From the NCBI RefSeq assembly GCF_002964975.1, contig NZ_PSZM01000036.1, positions 62,001 through 126,000 of the forward strand: 64,000 nucleotides of DNA, written 5' to 3'. The position numbers and the translations under genes are program-made. This DNA is from Apibacter adventoris (lineage in GTDB: Bacteria; Bacteroidota; Bacteroidia; Flavobacteriales; Weeksellaceae). The notes beneath the pieces were generated by a model. It made no database searches, was not told the origin of the DNA, and saw only the letters and a list, made by a program, of their open reading frames with translations. Below, in pieces: positions 3,002 through 4,396 of this stretch. Position 1 is the first letter of the stretch; every line of letters begins with the position of its first letter.

Positions 3002-3112
3002 ATTAAAATATTTTCGATATATTATTAAAAATTTTATGGTATAGCAATTAGATAAAGAAAATTTTTTATCTAAAAAAGGATTTTGATTTGATATTATATT
3101 AATAATATATTT

Positions 3113-3120
3113 TACTTTTG
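3113..3120 (+). promoter_or_regulatory. -7 element upstream of the structured RNA candidate
   Basis: TACTTTTG fits TAnnTTTG. A TTTG at 3087-3090, 22 bases upstream, could serve as the -33 box. Transcription would begin near 3127 and would read the structured block that follows. Confidence 0.5.
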
Positions 3121-3126
3121 TAAAGT

Positions 3127-3332
3127 AGAAACTTTAAAAGATTAGAAGTTATAAGAAAATAAAAATTTTAAAATAAAAAAATTAAGCGTTAGCTTTAGTG
3201 ATAACCAGAAAATCGCCAGTTTTCAAACATTTCACACACTAGCTATTCAAAGTGGCGTGGGATGTTTTTATTGAGTGTGTGGGTTCTGGCGAGCCTTTGG
3301 TGTCAATAAGTTCAGTTCCCACGCTTTTTTAT
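3127..3332 (+). ncRNA. Candidate structured non-coding RNA (class not recognised)
   Basis: No ORF of note covers this block, but four nested helices fold: AAGCGT 3184-3189 with ACGCTT 3321-3326; ACCA 3204-3207 with TGGT 3298-3301; TCGCCAG 3213-3219 with CTGGCGA 3286-3292; CACACACT 3233-3240 with AGTGTGTG 3274-3281. The 33-nt apical loop contains GCGTGGGA (3255-3262), which is complementary to TCCCACGC at the 3' end (3317-3324); this is a possible pseudoknot, or a switch that would build a terminator before TTTTTT. The block is clearly richer in GC than its surroundings. Rod shape, length and central bulge recall 6S RNA, but I cannot assign a family. It could also be a riboswitch-like leader of the VanZ-like gene at 3388. 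Confidence 0.55.
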
Positions 3333-3387
3333 TTAAATAAATTCTGCTTTTTGGGATTGGAAGCATAAATTAAAATTAGAATTTTCG

Positions 3388-3858
3388 TTGAAAATAATCA
3401 ATAATTCTTTTACTAAACATAAAATATGCTTATTAATTGGAAGTAGTATTAGTTTATTCATAGGTATCCTAATATATATATTCTTTAGGAATTTTCCCTT
3501 AAGAATTTTTTCATGGAGTGAACTAGTAGGAATACAACAATTTTTATATAAAATAAGAGAACATAACATTTCTTACGTCAGATATATTCCTGATTGGATG
3601 TTATTTTCTTTACCAGATGGACTATGGATTTTTTCTTATACCTGTTTTACACTTTACATTTGGAAAAATATAATATCTGTGGAAAATGTAATCTGGTTTA
3701 TAATAATTCCTTTTGTAGCAATAGGGTCTGAATTACTACAGTTATTTCAATTACTCTCCGGGACTTTTGATATAACAGATTTGTTATTTTATTTATTGGG
3801 ATTTCTCCTTCCTTTTATACTTTTCAAAAAATCAATTATATATAAATTTAAAATTTAA
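3388..3858 (+). CDS. VanZ-like small membrane protein
   Basis: 156 residues with about four hydrophobic segments (residues 12-32, 74-91, 98-115, 128-146). The block SLPDGLWIF followed by an acidic GSELLQLFQ and GTFDITDLLFYLLG matches the VanZ-like family found in many flavobacteria. Its function is unknown; the name comes from a teicoplanin-resistance gene, but no resistance role is implied. No ATG is available between the upstream in-frame stop at 3334 and the conserved region, so the TTG at 3388 is taken as start. It lies 55 bases downstream of the U-tract of the structured RNA and 4 bases before the next gene, with which it probably forms an operon. Confidence 0.72.
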   Translation: MKIINNSFTKHKICLLIGSSISLFIGILIYIFFRNFPLRIFSWSELVGIQQFLYKIREHNISYVRYIPDWMLFSLPDGLWIFSYTCFTLYIWKNIISVENVIWFIIIPFVAIGSELLQLFQLLSGTFDITDLLFYLLGFLLPFILFKKSIIYKFKI

Positions 3859-3862
3859 AATC

Positions 3863-4396
3863 ATGAAAAAACATTTTAAAACATTAATTTCAGCTTTAGC
3901 TGTTGTATTCTTTTCATTTATTGCTTTTGCAAGTCTGGACGATGATAAAAAAGATTCGGAATCTTCTTCTATAGATAATTCTTTCAATTATATAAAATTA
4001 GGAGAGCCTCTACAGACAAAGTATTTTGAAGTAACAGTGAATAAAATAAATATAGAAGATAAGGTAGATACCGGAAATCAATTTGCAGACCTTGACAAAG
4101 AAGAAGGGAATCTTTATTTAATTTTAAACACTACTTTCAAAAATATAAGTGATGAAAGCAGGATGTTAATGGATGGAGAAGTGTTGATTAATTATAATGG
4201 GAAACAATATAAATTTGATCACTCAGAAACAATACTATTAGATGGTTGGGGATTGTCACTTAAACAGATTAATCCATTAACTAAGAAAACAACTAATTTA
4301 GTATATAAAATTCCGGCAGAAATAAAAGGAGAGGTTTATTATAGACCTGGACGTTCTGATAAAAAAGATTTAATAGTATTGGGAGAAATTAAATAG
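3863..4396 (+). CDS. Secreted DUF4352-like protein
   Basis: 177 residues. An N-terminal signal peptide (KK, then a hydrophobic stretch to about residue 23, ending AFA-S) directs export. The mature part starts with a Ser/Asp-rich linker and then a beta-rich domain with the pattern typical of DUF4352/telokin-like folds: GEPLQTKYFEVTVNKI, LYLILNTTFKNISDE, and a closing YKIPAEIKGEVYY strand. These are extracytoplasmic immunoglobulin-like proteins of unknown role. It starts 4 bases after the VanZ-like gene. Confidence 0.7.
   Translation: MKKHFKTLISALAVVFFSFIAFASLDDDKKDSESSSIDNSFNYIKLGEPLQTKYFEVTVNKINIEDKVDTGNQFADLDKEEGNLYLILNTTFKNISDESRMLMDGEVLINYNGKQYKFDHSETILLDGWGLSLKQINPLTKKTTNLVYKIPAEIKGEVYYRPGRSDKKDLIVLGEIK

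Follow-up and report, generated by a model that had tools for sequence, protein, structure and literature searches.

A structured RNA ahead of a VanZ-like gene of Apibacter adventoris: probable member of a widespread Bacteroidota family of attenuator leaders with two competing folds

We have analysed an RNA encoded at positions 3182-3331 of a 64,000-nt stretch of Apibacter adventoris DNA, referred to here as the window. It is a real structured RNA with very strong covariation, and comparison and prediction brought to light its leader position, a promoter box, competing strands, two folds and a U-run; from these we consider it probable that the RNA belongs to a widespread Bacteroidota family of 5' leaders that would act as transcription attenuators. 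On its 5' side the RNA is flanked by a tRNA-Met gene (2879-2953), itself preceded by two consecutive arginine deiminase/DDAH-type genes (942-2834), and on its 3' side by a VanZ-like/DUF4352 gene pair (3388-4396). In the first of the two proposed folds, state A, the 5' and 3' halves would pair with each other as one long hairpin (P1-P4), with strand 2 tied up by strand 1. In the second, state B, each half would fold on itself through the helices 0:1 and 2:3, and the 2:3 hairpin would be followed by the U-run. The parts of the locus are as follows.

3087-3120, + strand: promoter, with TTTG at 3087-3090 and the Bacteroidota-type -7 box TACTTTTG at 3113-3120, assigned from the sequence
3182-3331, + strand: structured RNA, full covariance-model match of 95.1 bits; this copy is one of the five training sequences
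3184-3195, + strand: 5' hairpin of state A, AAGC-GTTA-GCTT, at the start of strand 0 (folds, model alignment and covariation)
3190-3201, + strand: strand 0 as used in state B, TAGCT at 3190-3194 and GTGA at 3198-3201 (constrained fold and fold of the 5' half)
3204-3209, + strand: 5' strand of P1, ACCAGA, with its state A partner at 3296-3301 (covariation and constrained fold)
3213-3219, + strand: 5' strand of P2, TCGCCAG, with its state A partner at 3286-3292 (covariation and constrained fold)
3232-3245, + strand: strand 1 region, with TCAC (3232-3235) and AGCTA (3241-3245) as the partners of strand 0 in state B (constrained and half folds)
3254-3274, + strand: strand 2, GGCGTGGGATGTTTTTATTGA, with strand 1 as putative partner in state A and strand 3 in state B
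3286-3292, + strand: 3' strand of P2, CTGGCGA (covariation and constrained fold)
3296-3301, + strand: 3' strand of P1, TTTGGT (covariation and constrained fold)
3303-3324, + strand: strand 3, the tail, TCAATAAGTTCAGTTCCCACGC, a terminator-like arm (2:3 pairing tests and fold of the 3' half)
3325-3330, + strand: U-run, TTTTTT, from the sequence
3353-3360, + strand: element GGGATTGG past the U-run; in some members the tail can pair with a similar element, and family-wide support is weak
3388-3858, + strand: open reading frame for a VanZ-like membrane protein, listed with a TTG start that is uncertain (Pfam VanZ, E 8e-4, under the curated cut-off)
3863-4396, + strand: open reading frame for a DUF4352 protein with a signal-like N-terminus (ORF listing and domain match)

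The promoter element reported in the first-pass annotation of this DNA is present: TACTTTTG has the form TAnnTTTG, which we take to be the consensus of the Bacteroidota-type -7 box, and boxes of the same form class were also found in G003 and G006, two further genomes of the genus. From the position of the box, transcription would be expected to start near 3127. The exact 8-bp complement between GCGTGGGA (3255-3262) and TCCCACGC (3317-3324), the latter followed by TTTTTT at 3325-3330, was as had been claimed, and we observed that this loop-to-tail pairing extends further, as TTATTGA (3268-3274) also complements TCAATAA (3303-3309). CACACACT (3233-3240) and AGTGTGTG (3274-3281) are exact complements as well. 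The + strand of the RNA folded better than 200 dinucleotide shuffles, none of which was as good (z -3.5); the fold of the opposite strand was weaker (z -2.2). The nested helices that had been put forward were recovered in part, in that the 6-bp closing stem and the 7-bp helix occur in the best fold, whereas the middle pairs are somewhat unlike the 8-bp helix described. In the unconstrained best fold the 5' end at 3184-3195 pairs with the tail instead of forming its own hairpin. The original description of a structured RNA with loop-to-3'-end pairing or a switch fits these results well, in that the helix between apical arm and tail is an alternative to the hairpin.

A search of the window against Rfam 15 yielded nothing but tRNAs over threshold, a line for MALAT1 (E 8.3) being due to chance, and among the loci of 26 relatives only tRNAs and one rteR, the latter outside the element, exceeded the gathering cut-offs. 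A match to the rteR small RNA over the Rfam cut-off was seen at L091:38-120, in a locus that also carries a family copy. A BLAST-type search of 60 related genomes gave one strong relative, syntenic and 78% identical over nearly the full length, in G003, and weak matches in G052 and G036 that were judged real by eye, with the same 5' motif and tail and with helices different in sequence yet complementary. Further members, L041/L043 and L045, came from a pattern scan and a search of phages; for L041 and L045 the z of the RNA fold was -6.9 and -6.7, respectively. By BLAST, the RNA of a relative matched one phage record and no plasmid.

We built a covariance model from five sequences (the window, G036, G052, L041 and L045) and searched with it at E 0.01. 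Matches were found in 58 of 246 genomes of the order and in 31 of 296 genomes of the phylum, two samples that overlap; five of the 31 are related to the window only at the level of the phylum. The G003 copy, outside the training set, scored 61 bits. The 54 aligned loci from the model searches constitute our first set. A second set came from a pattern scan of named genomes, which gave at least 120 stretches; the model matched 70 of the 80 loci listed (74 hits), mostly from Bacteroidales (Paraprevotella clara, Bacteroides caecigallinarum, Alistipes and Prevotella MAGs). It should be noted that the second set was chosen by an exact sequence pattern, which exaggerates the apparent conservation of its 5' hairpin and P2. 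In most counts 70 of its hits were used, with L171, L157, L104 and a weak antisense hit in L115 left out; covariation and the 2:3 and 0:1 column counts were computed on all 74 hits (71 distinct sequences).

The family is thus widespread, and it is multi-copy, neither of which the first-pass annotation had suggested. In 15 genomes chosen for having hits, with up to 150 candidates scored in each, we counted one to eight copies per genome; the window's own genome has one. Copies also occur on viral or phage-labelled contigs: when 20 viral-contig loci were compared with the model, five matched at up to E 0.01, one of them weakly (E 0.005), and 19 contained the exact core pattern. A Prevotellaceae MAG (L141) carries three copies within 8 kb, in both orientations, with an open reading frame of its own after each. 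A contig labelled as Paenibacillus (L115) carries a typical Bacteroidales-type copy, so this MAG may be mislabelled or contaminated.

The long hairpin of state A is borne out by covariation in both sets. In alignments that were fitted to state A and that counted related sequences at full weight, 89.1% of the cells of the 54 distinct first-set sequences were paired, with changes on both sides at 48 of 51 pairs and a covariation score of 0.576 (0.185 in shuffles, and at most 0.092 with the partner slid), and the corresponding values for the 71 distinct second-set sequences were 87.7%, 35 of 51 pairs and 0.388 (0.139 in shuffles). Compensatory changes in relatives had been named beforehand as the test that could refute the structure, and they were found. 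GU cells outnumbered AC cells by 291 to 44, which fits an RNA of the + strand. The A residues of J1/2 and the CC of J2/1 were near-invariant. RNAalifold gave poor structures on MAFFT alignments of four sequences. The motifs CAAACAT (3224-3230) and ATGTTT (3262-3267), to which a role in promoter mimicry had been attributed, are present, but they lie within a part of the RNA that by eye varies across the family and therefore lend that proposal no support.

State B rests on the resemblance of the tail to the 5' arm of P4, by virtue of which strands 1 and 3 are alternative partners for strand 2. In both sets, the 7-bp core of the 2:3 helix was paired in 96.8% of cases, with both-side changes at six of the seven pairs in the first set and at three in the second; the cells with such changes numbered 8 (1.1 in shuffles) and 4 (0.1 in shuffles), respectively. 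Some measures for the second set were weak, further pair types being reached by 58 of 500 shuffles. RNAalifold, applied without the model to 28 3' halves (L032 left out), returned the same 8-bp 2:3 stem with both-side changes at three pairs. Over the longer 2:3 stretch, duplexes with a member's own tail had a mean energy of -24.7 kcal/mol, as compared with -20.0 kcal/mol for swapped tails, and the member's own tail was the stronger partner in 108 of 111 cases; 13 of the 124 hits, which have no recognisable apical anchor, were left out of these swaps and of the constrained-energy comparison described below.

Constrained folds revealed that strand 0, at the 5' end, is complementary to strand 1, so that the 5' end has a competing partner of its own, a feature beyond the scope of the earlier description. 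Own 0:1 duplexes were stronger than swapped ones in 95 of 108 members, this being the number left after removal of duplicates here and in the half-fold and unconstrained-fold tests. The 0:1 columns were paired in 88.8% (first set) and 94.1% (second set) of cases, and in at most 62.3% and 50.1% when slid. The 0:1 helix is likely, though less firmly shown than the remaining helices, because 18 of the 20 first-set cells with both-side changes fell at a single pair (such pairs numbered two in all, which 294 of 500 shuffles reached), because the second set had two such cells, and because RNAalifold did not recover the helix from 27 MAFFT-aligned 5' halves (L032 and L159 left out), for which it gave poor structure.

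Each half also folds well by itself. Compared with shuffles, the mean z was -2.57 for 5' halves and -4.42 for 3' halves. The 5' halves were predicted to pair within themselves in 107 of 108 members; among the 3' halves, the terminator stem was predicted in 105, an inner hairpin that includes bases of J2/1 in 98, and both in 96. The commonest loops of this inner hairpin, UGGC (58 members) and ACCA (18), are parts of the 3' strand of P2, and in the predicted 5' half CGCCA of the 5' strand of P2 forms a hairpin loop. A U-run was found at the 3' end of 114 of 124 members, as compared with 147 of 980 background windows.

When the tail was held unpaired in state A, the 2 states were nearly equal in predicted energy (means of -50.8 kcal/mol for A and -50.9 kcal/mol for B, with A the lower in 54 of 111 members). 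The unconstrained best fold of the complete RNA, on the other hand, was the long hairpin in 98 of 108 members and contained 2:3 in only 9; in 81 of those 98 folds the 5' end was paired with the tail. The mean best fold was -60.5 kcal/mol over all 108, versus -50.9 kcal/mol with 2:3 forced. Since the finished RNA is predicted to prefer state A, state B, if it matters, must arise during transcription; other attenuators likewise decide their folding as they are transcribed. Three further pairings of the ends were weighed. For the pairing of the 5' end with the tail, which corresponds to the 6-bp closing helix of the first-pass annotation, own sequences surpassed swapped ones in 57 of 108 members and were thus no better than swaps, as expected if both ends are nearly constant. 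We set aside a closing helix P0 (GGACA of the leader with UGUCC past the U-run), which looks good by eye in several Bacteroidales copies, since own exceeded swapped in only 50 of 70, and likewise a GGGACTG-type element past the U-run as partner of the tail (only 36 of 54 and 42 of 69).

The preference of the finished RNA for the long hairpin can be turned into an argument for a structured 5' UTR with an effect on the translation or stability of the downstream message, with read-through as the rule and an incidental U-run; the element past the U-run that can pair with the tail in some members would suit such a function, although its statistics are weak. We consider this rather unlikely, as a U-run at the frequency given above, placed directly after 2:3, has the look of an intrinsic terminator.

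The genomic setting of the family is that of a leader. The nearest open reading frame within 500 nt downstream was on the same strand in 102 of 110 cases (second set alone, 57 of 59), and its median distance from the RNA was 65 nt. In the 130 nt before the RNA, a TAnnTTTG box was present in 47 of 69 and in 43 of 54 loci, as compared with 14 of 176 and 13 of 162 background windows; it usually stands some 30 nt away in the Flavobacterium/Chryseobacterium type, and some 60-80 nt away in the second set. The suggestion of a riboswitch-like leader for the VanZ-like gene, also made in the first-pass annotation, agrees well with these findings as far as the RNA is a leader in cis. Its companion suggestion, a 6S-like promoter mimic, does not: the Rfam covariance search proposed at the outset, with 6S first, gave no 6S match at the region even at E 10, and a separate 6S-Flavo candidate is present on a different contig of the genome (G000:C46:13692-13824, L031; 46.8 bits, below the Rfam cut-off of 85).

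A stand-alone or trans-acting small RNA, whether 6S-like or base-pairing, that merely happens to lie upstream of genes would also have a promoter box and a U-run, and the single stable hairpin predicted for the finished RNA would suit it. In the Flavobacterium/Chryseobacterium type, moreover, the SusC-type open reading frame starts as far as 226-418 nt from the RNA, and both functions could coexist if the terminated product acted in trans. We regard this alternative as improbable in view of the same-strand gene at close range in most loci, the outcome of the 6S search, the separate 6S-Flavo candidate and the occurrence of up to eight copies in other genomes, mostly each ahead of a gene.

Genes for putatively exported proteins were enriched downstream. 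By a crude hydrophobicity rule applied to our own ORF calls, a hydrophobic N-terminus or lipobox was present in 71 of 97 of the encoded proteins, versus 81 of 228 for the other complete open reading frames of these loci that have 100 aa or more (Fisher p 6e-10, with kinship ignored and near-identical loci kept). Among the downstream proteins are those of the TonB-plug (SusC) type (first set, 12 of 41), BspA-type LRR proteins (8 of 56), outer-membrane barrels (4 of 56) and DNA methylases (2 of 56), together with lipoproteins, sigma factors and VanZ-like proteins; DarT, a PD-(D/E)XK nuclease and a LytTR regulator occurred once each. We saw no coherent metabolic or functional theme among them. 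No RT family appeared among the best 25 of the 26, 33 and 42 families for 41, 47 and 56 neighbours, respectively. Three loci with copies of the Flavobacterium/Chryseobacterium type (L236, L237 and L238) share a layout in which a small divergent HTH-like gene is followed by the RNA, a SusC-type gene, a SusD-like open reading frame, a large open reading frame, a small convergent one and a MauE/DoxX-like one; the names were read by eye except for the SusC plug and the HTH, which are domain matches. At L240:1969-4127 (G268) the RNA lies ahead of genes for an ECF sigma factor and a 364-aa protein, and the latter matches nuclease-deactivated Cas12f (PDB 9n9c) over its full length (E 2e-194). The next open reading frame in L089, from another genome, is also sigma factor-like.

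The diversity of these genes bears on whether the family might be a metabolite or second-messenger riboswitch, with P1-P2-P3 and the conserved junctions as aptamer and the choice between 1:2 and 2:3 as expression platform. Leader position, U-run and alternative helices would all be expected of a riboswitch, the near-invariant bases of J1/2 and J2/1 would suit an aptamer core, and multiple copies ahead of diverse genes, here up to eight per genome, are a pattern also known for second-messenger riboswitches. We nevertheless hold a riboswitch to be possible but unlikely. The downstream genes show no coherent metabolic theme, and the J2/1 bases pair within the inner hairpin in 98 of 108 predicted 3' halves, so that their conservation could be explained without a ligand.

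The scattered distribution of the family, together with its copies on viral or phage-labelled contigs, raises a different possibility, namely that the element functions as DNA, i.e. as a folded recombination or transposition site (attC-like or a mobile-element end) carried along with accessory genes. A serine resolvase gene lies upstream in 3 of 47 loci (L009, L048 and L050, from three genera), ending 73-233 nt before the RNA, and mobilisation-like open reading frames were noticed by eye near two type-2 operons (L236 and L237). We consider a DNA element highly improbable. The orientation of the genes, the promoter box, the U-run, the in-frame mini-ORF described below and the excess of GU over AC favour an RNA of the + strand, and at most three copies occur within 8 kb among 80 loci. 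Integron attC sites have conserved core boxes and stand in cassette arrays; core boxes of the attC type were not seen by eye in the element.

Leaders of the second set contain a start-stop mini-ORF: an ATG lies about 33 nt before the RNA and is followed within 0-2 codons by an in-frame stop in 52 of 57 distinct leaders, whereas the other two frames have a stop in 5 and 19 of the 57. An open reading frame of at most 3 codons was present in 58 of 70 second-set leaders, versus 21.3 in shuffles. By eye, the codons of the second-set mini-ORFs (ATG, 0-2 codons and stop) vary, and we saw no leader peptide with regulatory codons. First-set leaders had the mini-ORF no more often than shuffles (13 of 54 versus 19.6). 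In 15 first-set leaders an ATG stands at the appropriate place; the stop was in frame in 9 of them and in the other frames in 3 and 1. In the window the leader has no ATG after the promoter. We therefore rejected the mini-ORF as a family-wide feature; being absent from the window and unenriched in the first set, it cannot be the common input.

The mechanism that we propose for the family, that of a transcription attenuator, would operate as follows. The 5' half would fold first, while the RNA is still being transcribed. As long as the halves are kept apart, strand 2 would meet strand 3 and transcription would stop early (OFF). Should the P2 complements, which lie in or near hairpin loops, meet each other, the strands would exchange to form the long hairpin, no terminator would form and the gene would be read (ON). 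Given the predicted preference of the finished molecule for the long hairpin, OFF would have to be a kinetic decision, and the balance would depend on some factor, for instance a protein, a ligand, the speed of the polymerase or, in Bacteroidales, a ribosome on the mini-ORF. Only tentatively, as an elaboration that may well prove wrong in one or other of its parts, do we suggest a portable, phylum-wide switch in which most bases would have partners in both folds, the loops would kiss to begin refolding, and the outcome in Bacteroidales would be set by a ribosome on the start-stop mini-ORF. If that were true, surface, secreted and defence genes would be switched by the state of translation initiation and termination rather than by codons of a leader peptide.

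The genes under control of the putative switch in the window would be the VanZ-like/DUF4352 pair. The window copy, however, no longer has the 5' arm of its apical hairpin, CACGC in other members. Its predicted energies with an unpaired tail are -36.6 kcal/mol for state A and -42.5 kcal/mol for state B; without constraint the best fold belongs to the long-hairpin class and reaches -44.2 kcal/mol. A terminator scan limited to loops of 3-8 found none in the window. Of nine genomes of the genus, two gave a match to the model at E 0.01, namely G000 (that of the window) and G003. G006 retains the tRNA-Met gene, the promoter box and the VanZ gene (71% protein identity), and its tRNA-Met/VanZ gap (about 1265-1441 of L036) apparently holds a decayed copy, a natural case of loss of the element. 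A VanZ-like gene also lies 3' of the RNA in G052, from another family (proteins 40% identical). We conclude that the window carries a worn copy of a functional RNA family; given its degeneracy and the decayed copy of G006, control of the VanZ-like gene may be lost.

Bacteroidota are dominant in many guts, and much of the post-initiation control of their surface systems is unexplored. A leader absent from Rfam 15 that precedes SusC-type operons, genes for BspA-type surface proteins and lipoproteins, and some restriction genes would constitute a shared control point, and any carrier kept in the laboratory could be used to test it. The wealth of natural variants should lend itself well to testing how RNA folds as it is transcribed, and as a translation input the start-stop mini-ORF would be unusual.

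In a literature coverage largely outside subscription journals and preprints, we did not find a description of the family. There was none in the accessible text of PMC11697453, PMC8040213, PMC5418344, PMC7366714 and PMC9723704, and term searches of PMC11109978 and PMC8632094 were without hits. Fragments of the family may be contained in the supplementary candidate lists of published surveys, among them that of Fremin and Bhatt (2021), which reported structured, terminator-like candidate RNAs from Bacteroidetes of human microbiomes (PMC8040213); its accessible text describes no architecture, spread or gene set like those of the present family.

Several known RNAs resemble the family in part. 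6S RNA of Flavobacteria is a long hairpin with bulges, of which there is essentially one housekeeping copy per genome. The window family shares the bulged long hairpin with 6S-Flavo (RF01685), but it gives no 6S match and has several copies in other genomes. The tetQ leader of the Bacteroides element CTnDOT is said to contain a very short leader ORF, of 3 codons (reportedly Wang et al., 2005). It is, like the window family, a Bacteroidota leader, and is under ribosome control; in the accessible text of PMC5418344, however, it is listed as a translation attenuator of one resistance gene, and not as a multi-copy family. The FopS and GibS small RNAs of Bacteroides are multi-copy and tied to SusC genes, but according to the accessible text of PMC11697453 the FopS RNAs are about 65-70 nt long and act in trans, whereas members of the window family have about 150 nt or more and lie in cis.

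There is a likeness, too, to the trp/his-type attenuators of amino acid operons, in which four strands pair as 1:2, 2:3 and 3:4 and the last hairpin, with its U-run, is the terminator. In both cases there is a leader RNA with strands that pair in turn and with a final hairpin and U-run. Unlike the trp/his attenuators, the RNA described here is one conserved family that stands before unrelated genes in many genera, and in place of a leader peptide with regulatory codons we saw only the 0-2-codon start-stop mini-ORF of the Bacteroidales type, which the window lacks. The design principle, competing strands and a terminator, is known; what is new is a portable and widespread family and its start-stop mini-ORF.
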